Of a DNA stretch of 47,243 bases, positions 22,782-30,694 are shown piece after piece; position 1 is the first letter of the stretch, and every line of letters begins with the position of its first letter. The notes beneath the pieces are model-generated. The model did no database searches. It saw nothing but the letters and a program-made list of their open reading frames with translations, and had not been told where the DNA came from. Source of the stretch: Nitrososphaeria archaeon (GTDB taxonomy: Archaea; Thermoproteota; Nitrososphaeria; Nitrososphaerales; JARVJX01); contig JARVJX010000003.1 in assembly GCA_029775995.1 (NCBI GenBank), forward strand, positions 1 through 47,243, written 5' to 3'. The translations under genes were made by a program, and so were the position numbers.

Positions 22782-24739
22782 CTTTCAATCCTCATTTTAT
22801 GAGTCTATCTATTGAAACGGAGGTGGGTTAATTAGAATGGTTCTCTTTACGATAACTTTCAATCCTCATTTTATGAGTCTATCTATTGAAACCCTATACT
22901 AGTTTTATTGGAGAAAAGAATGCGATATACTTTCAATCCTCATTTTATGAGTCTATCTATTGAAACTGTGCTTGATAGTTGCTTGGCAACATTAGAAAGT
23001 AATCTTTCAATCCTCATTTTATGAGTCTATCTATTGAAACAAATTTACCAGGAATATCTGAACCTGTAGGATACCTTCTTTCAATCCTCATTTTATGAGT
23101 CTATCTATTGAAACGGATACGATTGGATAGATGTCTTCTGGGGGTTAACCTCTTTCAATCCTCATTTTATGAGTCTATCTATTGAAACGTTCACTATGTG
23201 GGTGCTTCGGCATGAGCATGAGTACTTTCAATCCTCATTTTATGAGTCTATCTATTGAAACTCCCGAGAATAGACAGCTCACTCCACCCGCCCGGGCCCT
23301 TTCAATCCTCATTTTATGAGTCTATCTATTGAAACAACTAATAGAGACTTTGGCTCCAATCATAGTATTCATCTTTCAATCCTCATTTTATGAGTCTATC
23401 TATTGAAACATTAATAGAACCTAGATGCCTACTAAAGGCTTATATCTTTCAATCCTCATTTTATGAGTCTATCTATTGAAACCGCAGGAACAAATATCAC
23501 TCCACCAGCTGATTTAATAACCCTTTCAATCCTCATTTTATGAGTCTATCTATTGAAACAAAGAAGAGCCGATGCTCCAAAAAATTTACCAAAATACTTT
23601 CAATCCTCATTTTATGAGTCTATCTATTGAAACTTTTGGAGAGAGCTAAAGAATACTTCTCTCAGCAGCTTTCAATCCTCATTTTATGAGTCTATCTATT
23701 GAAACTTAATCCCCTCATAATATGGCTTTATTAAATGCATAATCTTTCAATCCTCATTTTATGAGTCTATCTATTGAAACCTGTGGCTCTTTCACTAACA
23801 ATAAGATTTTATCTTGCTTTCAATCCTCATTTTATGAGTCTATCTATTGAAACAGAGAAGCAAAAGGGGCTATAGTCTTTGTCAAAATATCCTTTCAATC
23901 CTCATTTTATGAGTCTATCTATTGAAACAATTTTGTCCCAGATTTCTTTGAGCGTAATTTATCACCTTTCAATCCTCATTTTATGAGTCTATCTATTGAA
24001 ACTAAACTTATGCTATTTAGATTAGACTGAATTATATCTTTCAATCCTCATTTTATGAGTCTATCTATTGAAACGGAGACGTTAGAGAGGGAGAGAGTCC
24101 CCACGTGGCTGTGGGCTTTCAATCCTCATTTTATGAGTCTATCTATTGAAACTAAAGGCTGCATTTTGTACGAGCGAGAAGAGTTTGACTTTCAATCCTC
24201 ATTTTATGAGTCTATCTATTGAAACAGAGGTATATAGTTATCTGAGTTTATATCTTTTAGTCTTTCAATCCTCATTTTATGAGTCTATCTATTGAAACGG
24301 GGCCTCTTTCCTATACTCCTATTTCCCCGCCCTGGCCTTTCAATCCTCATTTTATGAGTCTATCTATTGAAACATCATAAGCTCCTGGCTCTACTTGAGG
24401 AATAGTAAACTTTCAATCCTCATTTTATGAGTCTATCTATTGAAACTCATTGGTGTGTTTGGCTTCCCCAAAACGGGGAAGTCTTTCAATCCTCATTTTA
24501 TGAGTCTATCTATTGAAACAACTGGTATGCTAAGTTTAATGAAGGAATTATTTAATCTTTCAATCCTCATTTTATGAGTCTATCTATTGAAACCACAAGT
24601 GCAAAAAAATGTTCAAAAAGTAGAGAAAACTTTCAATCCTCATTTTATGAGTCTATCTATTGAAACACTTTTGGCAAGCCCGTTTTGTGGGTACTTGTTC
24701 CACTTTCAATCCTCATTTTATGAGTCTATCTATTGAAAC
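22782..24739 (-). CRISPR. CRISPR array 1: 27 repeats / 26 spacers, 37-bp repeat (leader-oriented GTTTCAATAGATAGACTCATAAAATGAGGATTGAAAG)
   Basis: Direct count of repeat CTTTCAATCCTCATTTTATGAGTCTATCTATTGAAAC (+ strand) at 72-78-bp spacing; leader at the right end. Confidence 0.98.
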
Positions 24740-24867
24740 CTACCCCTTGCCATCCTCCTATAGGAAAAAGGGGTTTAAAAATTGTTCGTTTTTATCTGAT
24801 TCTGTGAACATCAAAAAATCTAAGGGGGGTATATAAAGAAGTTCACAAAAATTTCAGATTAAAGGCA
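24740..24867 (-). promoter_or_regulatory. CRISPR leader of array 1
   Basis: 128 bp, exact inverted copy of 28033-28160. Confidence 0.85.
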
Positions 24868-25261
24868 ATATACGTTGGTAGGATAGGCTATTTCTTATTA
24901 TCCCCAAGATAAGCGAAGCATTTGTAATAAAAAAGACCTTCCTATTGTTAAGTTAAAAAATTTGCTTTATGGCTTAGCTTTATGGATTAATTACGATTTT
25001 TGCTCTCTTTATCCTATTTCAGCCTTTAAGATAAAGTTTTGGAAAGAACTTAAAGTAGCGGAATGAAAATAGGAACAAGTATAAAAGAGGGTTAACCACA
25101 GAGCTAAAATCATTTTAAGTGTTTAACAGTAAAGGGTTTGAGAGTATCACAACTTAATAGAGATGGTAAAAGCCACATATCCCAATTCTTAACATATACA
25201 ATTAATTTATCTCAAATTTTATGCTGAAAGGTAAATAAAGCACACCTATCTTAACCTATGT

Positions 25262-25546
25262 ATGCTCACGCTAGTAATTTATGATATCTCAGATGATAGA
25301 GATCGCTCTAAACTTGCTGAGCTTCTTATGAATTATGGGTTAGAGCGAATTCAATATAGTGGCTTTAAGGGGATGCTCAATACCCATGACCGTTTAATGC
25401 TTGCTAAAGAGGTTAAGAGATTTGTGAAGGGCGATAGGGATAGCATCTATTTGATCAGGTTGTGTAGAGAGTGCGCAAGCTTATGCCAAATAATCTCAAA
25501 AAAGGAGATAGTTTTAGTGAATGAATCTGATGTAAAGATCCTTTAG
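25262..25546 (+). CDS. cas2: CRISPR-associated endonuclease Cas2
   Basis: MLTLVIYDISDDRDRSKLAELLMNYGLERIQYSGFKG. Confidence 0.93.
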   Translation: MLTLVIYDISDDRDRSKLAELLMNYGLERIQYSGFKGMLNTHDRLMLAKEVKRFVKGDRDSIYLIRLCRECASLCQIISKKEIVLVNESDVKIL

Positions 25547-25555
25547 GGTGATTTA

Positions 25556-26440
25556 ATGTATTTTCTATCTGAGCTTGAGCATAAACTCCTCTTGAATAAG
25601 ATTTTACCTCAGGCTAGACAGGTAGGAGTAAGCCCTGAGTTAAGAGGTTGGAATTGGCATCAACCTCCTCTTAAGCCCTACTATGATGATGTGAAGGTTC
25701 CCATGTACGCTGTTTGCTCAAAGTATTGTCCTACAAGCAGGGATGTATTTTTAAATCAAGTTGAGAAGGCAAAGCCAATACTGAATGAGAAGGTTACTTT
25801 AGGCAAAATCCTTCATGGAGTGGTAAGCGATGTACTTCTAGGCTTCATAGATAGATCTGAAATAGATTTTGAAGAATGGTGGAGCAAGATCAGGTGGGAG
25901 GGTATGTATGGTGATAGAGATCTTTTGAAGAAGAGGGCAAAGCAGCTTTGGGATTATGTTTTAATAGTATGTAAAACTCATTATATAACTCACTCAGCTA
26001 TTCAGCCCTATTCTTCAGAGCGAGACTTATATGCCTCATCCATACCTTTCCTTATTGAGCATAAGATTTCAGGAGAGCTTCTTGGTTTAAGTGGCTTACT
26101 AAGTATAGATTGTTATGATTATTTAAAATGCATAATGTTCGATCTAAAGGTGGATGATAAGCAAGAGGATTGGCATAGGCTCTTTCCAGTAGGCTACGCT
26201 ATAGTATTTGAGAGTGTTCATGAAGTTCCTGTAGATGTATGCTGTGTCATATACGTAAGTTTCATAAGAGATAAGCTTGTAATCAAGAAGGATCTATTTT
26301 TTGCAAACAATGAACTTAGGAGCTGGTGGTTAGAAGAAAGAGATAAGAAGCTTCAAATAATAGCCTTAAGAAAGGATCCAGGTATACCTAACCAATGCCC
26401 TGAAGATTGCATCTATTATAAGTTCTGTAGAGGTGAGTAA
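25556..26440 (+). CDS. csa1: Csa1 (Cas4-family, type I-A adaptation protein)
   Basis: ELRGWNWHQPPLKPYYD..., KYCPTSRDVFLNQV, C-terminal Cys pairs NQCPEDCIYYKFCRG; between cas2 and cas1. Confidence 0.85.
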   Translation: MYFLSELEHKLLLNKILPQARQVGVSPELRGWNWHQPPLKPYYDDVKVPMYAVCSKYCPTSRDVFLNQVEKAKPILNEKVTLGKILHGVVSDVLLGFIDRSEIDFEEWWSKIRWEGMYGDRDLLKKRAKQLWDYVLIVCKTHYITHSAIQPYSSERDLYASSIPFLIEHKISGELLGLSGLLSIDCYDYLKCIMFDLKVDDKQEDWHRLFPVGYAIVFESVHEVPVDVCCVIYVSFIRDKLVIKKDLFFANNELRSWWLEERDKKLQIIALRKDPGIPNQCPEDCIYYKFCRGE

Positions 26441-27467
26441 GGTGAAGAGGTTAGTTATAGATGGATTTGGGAAGTATGTTGGTGTGAAGGGAGAAAGGAT
26501 AGTGGTTAAAGAGAATAGCTCAGTAATTTATCAGGTTCTTCCAAGTGAGCTTAGACAGGTCTTGATTACTGGGAAAGGTACCATAAGTTTCGATGCGATA
26601 AATATTCTCTCTAAAAACGGTGTAGATATTGTCTTTGTGAATAAGAGTGGTGAGCTTACTGCTCGTTTATCTCCTCTAGAGTTCAGAACCGTTTTAACGA
26701 GGAGGGAACAATATTACGCTTATAGAGATAAGAGATCTGTAATACTTGCCAAGGAGTTCGCTCTATCAAAGTTGAAGAACCAATACGCTACACTTGGAAC
26801 CCTTGCAAAGAGGAGAAAAGAGACAAATCCAGAGGCTTCTGATTTTATCTTGAATCAGAGGGATATGATCTATGCTAAATTGCTTGAGCTGGAGAAGATT
26901 AAAGGTGATAATATAGATTCTGTAAGAGAAGTTATCATGGGCTTAGAGGGAGCTGCATCAGCATCTTACTGGTCAGCCTTAACAGCCATTATATCTGATG
27001 AATTTGGTTTTAAGGGTAGGTCTGGTAGATACGCCACTGACCCTGTGAATGCTTTGCTCAATTACGGTTATGGCGTATTGGAGGGGGAGGTTTGGAGGGC
27101 TATTCATTTTTCAGGGTTAGATCCTTATGGAGGTTTTCTTCATGCTGACAGGCCTGGGAAACCTAGCATGGTGTTAGATTTGATGGAGGAGTTTAGACAG
27201 CAGATAGTAGATAAGATTGTTATTAAGCTACTTACAAAGAGGGAAGTTAAGCCCGAAGATTTCACCATTCAAGAAGGCTCATGCATCCTTAAGGATAATA
27301 CTCGAAGGATACTTTTAAGGGAGCTTCTTGAGAAGTTTGAGGAGTATATATCTTTAGGTGATGAGAAGGTAAGATGGTGTGATTTAATCCTAAATCAGGC
27401 TAGGAAGGTAGGTAGTTATTTAAGAGGCGAGATAACAAAATATGAAGGCTTCTGGCTCCGATGGTAA
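26433..27467 (+). CDS. cas1: CRISPR-associated endonuclease Cas1
   Basis: LEGAASASYWSAL, DPVNALLNYGYGVLEGEVWRAIHFSGLDPYGGFLHADRPGKPSMVLDLMEEFR. Confidence 0.96.
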   Translation: MSKVKRLVIDGFGKYVGVKGERIVVKENSSVIYQVLPSELRQVLITGKGTISFDAINILSKNGVDIVFVNKSGELTARLSPLEFRTVLTRREQYYAYRDKRSVILAKEFALSKLKNQYATLGTLAKRRKETNPEASDFILNQRDMIYAKLLELEKIKGDNIDSVREVIMGLEGAASASYWSALTAIISDEFGFKGRSGRYATDPVNALLNYGYGVLEGEVWRAIHFSGLDPYGGFLHADRPGKPSMVLDLMEEFRQQIVDKIVIKLLTKREVKPEDFTIQEGSCILKDNTRRILLRELLEKFEEYISLGDEKVRWCDLILNQARKVGSYLRGEITKYEGFWLRW

Positions 27468-28041
27468 GTTTCTAATAGATGTATGGGATATAACTCAATA
27501 CTATTATTGCCCAAGAAAGCTATATTTTCTAAGGACTTTAAAGGTTCCTGTAACTTTGAAGAGGAAGATGGAGGAAGGTAAGGAGGAGCATTTGAAGGAG
27601 ATTAAAAGAATGAAGGAGAGGAAAGATATTTTTTCTTTACCTAAGAGTGAAGTTAAAGGAATTCATTACAAGCTTCAATTAGAGAGTGAAGAATTGGGCT
27701 TAGCAGGACAAGTTGATTTAGTTTTAGAGTTAAGCAATGGGGATATGGTACCTGTAGAGATCAAATATTCAGATTATATGGAAACTTTTATTGGAAGGAA
27801 AAAGCAGCTTATTGCCTATGCCATTCTTCTTGAAGAAAACTTTAAAAGATCTGTTAAGCAAGGAATCCTTTACTACCCAGTTCAGAATAAGCATATAATT
27901 TTAGATATAAGCTATGAAGAAAAAAAGAATTTGATTAAGGATATAAAGAGAATAAGAGAGAGCATAATTTCTGAAAGGATTCCTAGAAGAGTTGATTCTT
28001 CAAAATGTGGTTACTGTGAAGTAGCTAGATACTGCCTTTAA
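27442..28041 (+). CDS. cas4: CRISPR-associated exonuclease Cas4
   Basis: DVWDITQYYYCPRKLYFLR, GQVDLVLE...VPVEIKYSD, KCGYCEVARYCL. Confidence 0.92.
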   Translation: MKASGSDGKFLIDVWDITQYYYCPRKLYFLRTLKVPVTLKRKMEEGKEEHLKEIKRMKERKDIFSLPKSEVKGIHYKLQLESEELGLAGQVDLVLELSNGDMVPVEIKYSDYMETFIGRKKQLIAYAILLEENFKRSVKQGILYYPVQNKHIILDISYEEKKNLIKDIKRIRESIISERIPRRVDSSKCGYCEVARYCL

Positions 28042-28160
28042 TCTGAAATTTTTGTGAACTTCTTTATATACCCCCCTTAGATTTTTTGATGTTCACAGAA
28101 TCAGATAAAAACGAACAATTTTTAAACCCCTTTTTCCTATAGGAGGATGGCAAGGGGTAG
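28033..28160 (+). promoter_or_regulatory. CRISPR leader of array 2
   Basis: 128 bp identical in inverted orientation to 24740-24867; contains TGTGAAC (28053-28059) / GTTCACA (28091-28097) inverted repeat and a TATA-like TTTTTAAA near 28118-28125. Confidence 0.85.
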
Positions 28161-29976
28161 GTTTCAATAGATAGACTCATAAAATGAGGATTGAAAGAAT
28201 AAAGGCATAGGCAACGGCTTCATCAGAAGCCTTTCGATAGTTTCAATAGATAGACTCATAAAATGAGGATTGAAAGCAAGGACTCCCCTTTGGGGAGCGC
28301 CTCTCATACGGGTTGTTTCAATAGATAGACTCATAAAATGAGGATTGAAAGAATTGACAGTCTTCAGCTTCATGCTCATGCTCAACTAGTTTCAATAGAT
28401 AGACTCATAAAATGAGGATTGAAAGTTATACGTTGATGTTCATCTGGCTTTATTTTTGTTGTTTCAATAGATAGACTCATAAAATGAGGATTGAAAGTTC
28501 TCTATGAAAGCAAGAACCCCGTCTTTGTAGACGGGGGTTTCAATAGATAGACTCATAAAATGAGGATTGAAAGGAAGTTCAAGTAGTCCATTTACGCTTC
28601 GACCCCATCGTTTCAATAGATAGACTCATAAAATGAGGATTGAAAGTTAGATAGCTAGAGCCGTTGGGGGTAGCATAAGCTGTTTCAATAGATAGACTCA
28701 TAAAATGAGGATTGAAAGTGATCTTGTTGACTCATTGCACTACCTCTACTACTCGAGTTTCAATAGATAGACTCATAAAATGAGGATTGAAAGTCTTTCT
28801 TCTTCTCCCTATCCATCTTTTCGTCATAATTGTTTCAATAGATAGACTCATAAAATGAGGATTGAAAGAGGGTTTCCGTCCATATCCAGTGGTAGTAAAA
28901 CCCGAAGTTTCAATAGATAGACTCATAAAATGAGGATTGAAAGTATCTGAGCAACAGCGTTAACTTCAAAAGTATTGCCTAGTTTCAATAGATAGACTCA
29001 TAAAATGAGGATTGAAAGAATATACATACCTTAAATTCTTTGGTAGCATCCAAGGTTTCAATAGATAGACTCATAAAATGAGGATTGAAAGTTCAACCAC
29101 GTCACCCGAACAAGTCGCTTATCGTTGGTTTCAATAGATAGACTCATAAAATGAGGATTGAAAGTAGGAAGTCTGCAGGTGAGAGCTTAAGCATTGGAAG
29201 TGTTTCAATAGATAGACTCATAAAATGAGGATTGAAAGAGAGGCCACTCTCATCATCCCTCCAGTAAAGGAGGTGTTTCAATAGATAGACTCATAAAATG
29301 AGGATTGAAAGTCTCTAACATATGAGATAGTGTCAAATGTTAATAACAGTTTCAATAGATAGACTCATAAAATGAGGATTGAAAGTTTTTATCCCGAATA
29401 TTCACCCTTTTCTACCTTATAAAGTTTCAATAGATAGACTCATAAAATGAGGATTGAAAGTGCTCTGGTTGACTCATGGCACTATCTGTAGTACTGTGTT
29501 TCAATAGATAGACTCATAAAATGAGGATTGAAAGGTACACTCAAGGTAAACTTTTCTTTTTTGATATTTTGTTTCAATAGATAGACTCATAAAATGAGGA
29601 TTGAAAGTTAAGCATGCTCTTATCAGTGGGTAGATGTGATAATGTTTCAATAGATAGACTCATAAAATGAGGATTGAAAGTATCCTATGGTTATAAGTGG
29701 AAACTCCCCCTTTAATGTTTCAATAGATAGACTCATAAAATGAGGATTGAAAGCAGTTGTTCTTTTGCAGATTGGACGTCTGTGTTGGACGTTTCAATAG
29801 ATAGACTCATAAAATGAGGATTGAAAGACAGGTATGAATGTTGGTAGGCTCTTTGCTTTTTCTTTGTTTCAATAGATAGACTCATAAAATGAGGATTGAA
29901 AGGTAATAACGATTTGCCCAAGCTTCAGCTTTTTCGTAAGTTTCAATAGATAGACTCATAAAATGAGGATTGAAAA
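28161..29976 (+). CRISPR. CRISPR array 2: 25 repeats / 24 spacers, 37-bp repeat GTTTCAATAGATAGACTCATAAAATGAGGATTGAAAG
   Basis: Direct count; last repeat (29940-29976) ends ATTGAAAA instead of ATTGAAAG. Confidence 0.98.
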
Positions 29977-29977
29977 T

Positions 29978-30694
29978 TTAACTCATACCTATTATTCGAA
30001 GAAGAGCCTCTTTTGAGATCAACCACTTCAGGCTCTTTATAGGCTCATAGATGTAAATTAGAGGAATAAGATACTGATTAGCCAGCTCATAGTAAGCTAT
30101 AGTTGCTGGTTTTGTTGCTGAGGTGCAATCTAATATTACTAAGTACTCCGTAAGTAGACTCTCTAACTGTGGTCTAACCTTCCTTTTAATAGCATCTATA
30201 TCCACAATCTCATTCTCATAGCATATGATCCATTGATAGGGCAACTTTAGTTTCTCCCATTCTTCAAAGGCATCGGTTGAAGTTGTAACATAGATTAGCT
30301 TTGGGCGATAACCTTCTTTTTCTAAGAGTTCTATTGCTACTTGAGGCTCAGGAGCCTTCTTCCCATCTCTCCTACCCAAGAGACCTATGTATGCTACTTT
30401 ATCTCGAATTTCTTTTGATTGATAGATAAAGCAGAGAGGAGTCTTGTATGTGAGCCTATAGGTTCCCTCTACTACCCTCTCAATAACACCATCTTTTTCA
30501 AGTACATTAAGATGGTGAACCAGCACATTAGCCTTAAAGCCTGTAGCTCTCTCTAATTCAGAAAACTTTCCAACCCCACCCTTTTTAGCTAACTCTGCCA
30601 CAATCTTCTTTCTCTTAAGATGCTTTAAGGCAACCCCATAGTTCGGTACCTTGGCAAGTTCAATTTTTTCAATATTCTTGAATGGATAATTCAT
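29978..30694 (-). CDS. wHTH + C-terminal CARF-like domain regulator (Csa3-like functions, inverted domain order)
   Basis: N-terminal wHTH LKRKKIVAELAKKGGVGKFSELERATGFKANVLVHHLNVLEKDGVIERV; C-terminal Rossmann-like VAYIGLLGRRDGKKAPEPQVAIELLEKEGYRPKLIYVTTS ... YLVILDCTSATKPATIAYYELANQYLIPLIYIYE. Confidence 0.62.
   Translation of the reverse strand: MNYPFKNIEKIELAKVPNYGVALKHLKRKKIVAELAKKGGVGKFSELERATGFKANVLVHHLNVLEKDGVIERVVEGTYRLTYKTPLCFIYQSKEIRDKVAYIGLLGRRDGKKAPEPQVAIELLEKEGYRPKLIYVTTSTDAFEEWEKLKLPYQWIICYENEIVDIDAIKRKVRPQLESLLTEYLVILDCTSATKPATIAYYELANQYLIPLIYIYEPIKSLKWLISKEALLRIIGMS

Follow-up and report, generated by a model that had tools for sequence, protein, structure and literature searches.

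How two CRISPR arrays on either side of one adaptation operon came to possess the same leader, and why the leader lying away from cas4 nevertheless ends on what look like the last codons of that gene, are the questions raised by a locus in a Nitrososphaeria archaeon. We address them from a contig stretch of 47,243 nucleotides, here called the window, and from comparisons with related loci across the phylum; the window genome is the sole member in the family-level comparison.

Anatomy of the paired locus

Array 1 (22782..24739, minus strand) reads away from the adaptation operon and comprises 27 identical repeats with 26 spacers, while array 2 (28161..29976, plus strand) comprises 25 repeats with 24 spacers. 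Their 37 bp repeats are identical, except for the final base of the last repeat of array 2, and the arrays have no spacers in common. Within array 2, spacers 8 and 18 are 83% alike over 35 nt and possibly have related targets. Between the leaders lie, all on the plus strand, cas2 (25262..25546; TIGR01573, PF09827), the Cas4/Csa1 gene csa1 (25556..26440; TIGR01896), cas1 (26433..27467; TIGR00287, PF01867) and cas4 (27442..28041; TIGR00372), each matching its family above the curated cut-off (for Csa1, taken as the marker of a type I-A adaptation module, 170.5 bits against 103.35). A stretch of 394 bp (24868..25261) with no listed open reading frame of at least 80 amino acids separates leader 1 from cas2. 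A Cas6-like gene precedes array 1. At the other end, the last repeat of array 2 adjoins the stop codon of a gene for a Csa3-like CARF-HTH regulator (29978..30694, minus strand; PADLOC CARF 4.8e-14, Csa3 3.5e-6), the junction lying within 29940-29980. A Cas4-like nuclease, a ring-nuclease-like CARF protein and a Cmr module are also encoded near array 2, and a scan of the window genes flanking the arrays found the effector genes beside them to be Cmr (III-B).

The cas2-side leader 1 (24740..24867, minus strand) and the cas4-side leader 2 (28033..28160, plus strand) were described in the initial annotation as exact reverse complements, and direct comparison bears this out at 128/128 positions; this 128-bp block has only these two copies in the whole 1.89 Mb assembly. 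When the first repeats are included, the exact inverted identity extends to 165 bp (24703-24867 and 28033-28197), beyond which there is a mismatch at 24868, matches at 24869-24871 and then no similarity. The annotation was also right that leader 2 overlaps the 3' end of cas4, by 9 bp, the final codons TGC CTT TAA (28033-28041) lying inside the inverted repeat, and that a mirror of this end (24859..24867, minus strand), reading TTAAAGGCA, stands in leader 1 just before similarity stops.

Such perfect identity could have been created by an assembler that duplicated one leader, given that the assembly is fragmented into 184 contigs and that the repeat may exceed short-read length. We regard this as very improbable: the two copies lead into separate arrays whose spacers differ, their unique flanks differ as well, and equivalent pairs are found in single-contig genomes. 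The assembly may have placed the operon between the repeats in the wrong orientation; since the tail is on the operon side, such a misorientation would neither remove it nor change the conclusions.

The arrangement itself is not unusual, having been published for Sulfolobus and being common in this phylum. In S. islandicus REY15A, the leaders of two CRISPR loci are identical over 206 bp and inverted relative to each other (PMC9456107). Like these type I-A paired loci, the window has opposed arrays whose identical leaders face an adaptation cassette with csa1, cas1, cas2 and cas4 between them, and it belongs with the paired Sulfolobus-type CRISPR loci, a layout already known. It differs from REY15A in placing cas2 first, in its leader and repeat sequences, including the repeat length of 37 bp, in the overlap of a leader with the cas4 end and in its neighboring effector genes, which are of the Cmr (III-B) type. 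The Sulfolobus-style twin-leader layout is thereby extended to an archaeal lineage outside Sulfolobus, in which the gene order differs.

A conserved dyad and its candidate regulator

Each leader contains a 43-bp dyad, GTGAAC-N31-GTTCAC, which encloses a TATA-like box (24804..24846, minus strand, in leader 1; 28054..28096, plus strand, in leader 2). The pattern GTGAAC-N28..34-GTTCAC occurs at two sites in the window genome, both in the leader pair (the reversed control gave 0), and likewise at two sites, both in its leader pair, in G012, the closest relative found with the operon. The 43-nt span is common to seven genomes, across which the arms covary, with 52 of 63 arm matches, a value reached by 4 of 5040 permutations. 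The box lies inside the dyad in the window, G012, Methanosuratincola petrocarbonis, G464 and G420, and is less clear in G003 and G219; a second leader pair of the window genome, on contig C96, has other arms around a similar box. Closer to the repeats is a weak stem-loop, CCCCTT..AAGGGG (28126..28158, plus strand; z = -2.0), with the same sequence in leader 1. Scanning for sigma-70 promoters gave no useful information, as is to be expected in an archaeon.

The Sulfolobus leader is reported to combine a distal motif bound by Csa3a with a proximal stem-loop bound by Cas1 (PMC9456107). By analogy, we predict that the 43-bp dyad is the functional core of the leader and a putative regulator site, for which the product of the Csa3-like gene is a candidate binder; a Csa3-type regulator would plausibly sit on the dyad around the TATA-like box. 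The weak proximal stem-loop resembles the Cas1 site reported for Sulfolobus and may help dock Cas1. On the same model, the two opposed arrays, both presumably active, would share the single cassette cas2-csa1-cas1-cas4, with identical leaders allowing one Cas1-Cas2 complex and one regulator to serve both. Spacer uptake by both arrays from this machinery would fit, if only indirectly, with their different spacers and identical repeats. The covarying, leader-specific dyad is in this way defined as a candidate site for a regulator.

Leader pairs across the phylum and their concerted evolution

We inspected 21 further loci of the phylum. At csa1 or the adaptation genes, nine of them show leaders in an inverted pair of 216-556 bp that is 90-100% identical, and G604 has an additional, looser pair. 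G012 (contig C38) has the same cas2-csa1-cas1-cas4 operon and, as in the window, an inverted leader pair whose 43-bp dyad has the same arms and is identical between the copies; unlike in the window, the adaptation operon does not lie between the two leaders, the arrays are short and the repeat sequence is another. The G012 copies share an identical 54-nt core, and their similarity ends 4 nt past the dyad. Read from the leader, the repeat of this contig (L202) is GATTCAAT...CAGAAAC, apparently opposite to the orientation that is usual among the relatives. In G003 and G219, as in the window, a leader directly follows the cas4 stop, the dyad beginning about 5 to 9 nt further on, and the repeat is related; in contrast to the window, no second leader was found on their cas2 side. 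Further repeats of related kind occur elsewhere in these genomes, on C7 of G003 and on C53 and the end of C3 of G219.

The second inverted pair of the window genome, on C96 (L064 9520-10680), is unrelated to that of the window and lies beside a second cas1; its copies are 97% identical over 145 bp, with similarity ending at the dyad, and its arrays span L064 8310-9556 and 10644-15175. A remnant array of few repeats (L064 6173-6376) is also near this second cas1, and on C99 (L063 4873-4931) a single degenerate repeat, with a proximal stretch resembling a leader, follows a radical-SAM-like gene.

Are such leaders more alike within a genome than between orthologues, as expected under gene conversion? 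Measured within a fixed frame of 160 bp, identity within pairs was 0.96-1.0 in eight re-measured loci, whereas identity to other species did not exceed 0.81. Looser pairs were those of G604 (0.82) and G624 (0.63), and in G565 and G714 re-measurement yielded no inverted pair; the window pair (0.86) and C96 (0.77) score low in this frame for the sole reason that the block shared by each pair does not fill 160 bp. In a quartet formed by G525 and G634, two genomes of one genus that both have the pair, taken as orthologous from gene order only, 32 informative sites group the leaders by genome, 0 by orthology and 0 across. Thus, the usually far higher identity within pairs than between species, together with the grouping of 32/32 sites by genome, indicates that the leaders evolve in concert. 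A literature search on gene conversion, concerted evolution and inverted duplication of leaders found nothing on the point; the present comparison documents the concerted evolution of CRISPR leaders directly, by counts of sites.

A probable cas4 tail and the direction of copying

The initial annotation had proposed that leader 1 retains a fossil of cas4, and the evidence supports this. Cas4 ends in Cys-X-stop in the window and in six relatives (G012, G472, M. petrocarbonis, a second Methanosuratincola, G464 and G420), which places the stop of the window cas4 at its native position; in G003 and G219 the end is Cys-Trp-Thr-stop. Further, the identity of the window pair runs 21 bp past the dyad, whereas base-by-base alignment of the G012 and C96 pairs shows similarity ending at the dyad or at most 4 nt from it. 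A native cas4 stop and a 21-bp segment that is not common to the G012 and C96 copies together suggest that TTAAAGGCA on the cas2 side was probably copied from the end of cas4, and the same unshared extension argues for one copying tract rather than selection alone. If one mismatch is allowed, the cas4-like tail reaches 12 of 13 nt, to position 24871 (ATAcTGCCTTTAA versus ATAtTGCCTTTAA). No convincing longer remnant of cas4 was detected upstream of cas2, the best score of 28 being matched by 8 of 300 shuffles. The exact part of the tail is 9 bp only, and is a rare but small marker of polarity; judged on the sequences at hand, a cas4 tail is most likely present in the cas2-side copy.

Could TGCCTTTAA instead serve a function within the leader and match the cas4 end by coincidence, its identity being due to purifying selection only? 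It is identical in both copies, and one relative shares a 6-mer: in the cas2-side leader of M. petrocarbonis, GCCTTT lies about 23 nt distal of the dyad. We considered this AAAGGC as a conserved motif that would refute a cas4 origin and dropped it, as G464, G420 and both G012 leaders are without it and as this one match to TGCCTTTAA in the relatives' leaders has P = 0.13 by shuffling. With TGCCTTTAA also lying distal to the conserved dyad, and the similarity of the G012 and C96 pairs stopping at or near the dyad, we find a functional origin of the segment improbable.

The annotation further suggested that leader 2 is the ancestral, cas4-abutting copy, and this is not supported. Among relatives with a single array at the operon, G003 and G219 do have a leader abutting cas4, but M. 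petrocarbonis, G464 and G420 have the array only on the cas2 side. Parsimony on array placement was given up as a means of settling the ancestral side, because trees of Csa1 and Cas1 did not resolve the order of the cas2-side and cas4-side clades. The three relatives with only a cas2-side array are also compatible with copying in the reverse direction, whereby an old cas2-side leader was joined to the 3' end of cas4 through TGC microhomology and supplied CTT TAA. The GCCTTT of M. petrocarbonis fits this too, as does the distance from dyad to repeat, which by eye is about 64 nt in the window, as in the leaders of these three relatives, and about 47 nt in the cas4-side G003 and G219. Yet the foreign sequence would then have had to supply a stop at the conserved Cys-X-stop position, a coincidence with a chance of about 0.07, and the three bases past the mismatch match as well. 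Moreover, the leaders of G464, G420 and G012 are without the segment, and the window repeat is most like those of G003 and G219, whose array is on the cas4 side. Copying from the cas2 side is on balance unlikely, though less so than a functional origin of the segment.

We therefore return to copying from the cas4 side. With a probability of about 0.7, the locus is a Sulfolobus-type pair of CRISPR arrays whose leaders were copied one from the other by a tract that ran into cas4, the cas2-side leader having been written from the cas4-side one. Inverted duplication or conversion would have produced one leader from the other, and a tract passing beyond the leader into the end of cas4 would have left 9 to 13 bp of cas4 tail on the cas2 side. 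That the present cas2-side leader was written from its cas4-side counterpart is what these sequences make most likely. The proposal of the initial annotation that leader 1 arose by inverted duplication from leader 2 stands as regards direction, which the cas4 tail favors; as regards process, a recent duplication and the conversion of an older pair are inseparable here.

Across archaea, we tentatively suggest that leader pairs may be repeatedly rewritten from one copy, with tracts entering cas4 leaving tails that mark the direction, as would be the case here and, weakly, in G494; if so, cas4 tails would let one read off which way leaders were copied. G494, of the same phylum, resembles the window in having an inverted leader pair (478 bp, 97.5%) that overlaps a Cas4 stop, the shared block crossing it by 6 nt, an AT-rich extension that constitutes weaker evidence than the tail in the window.
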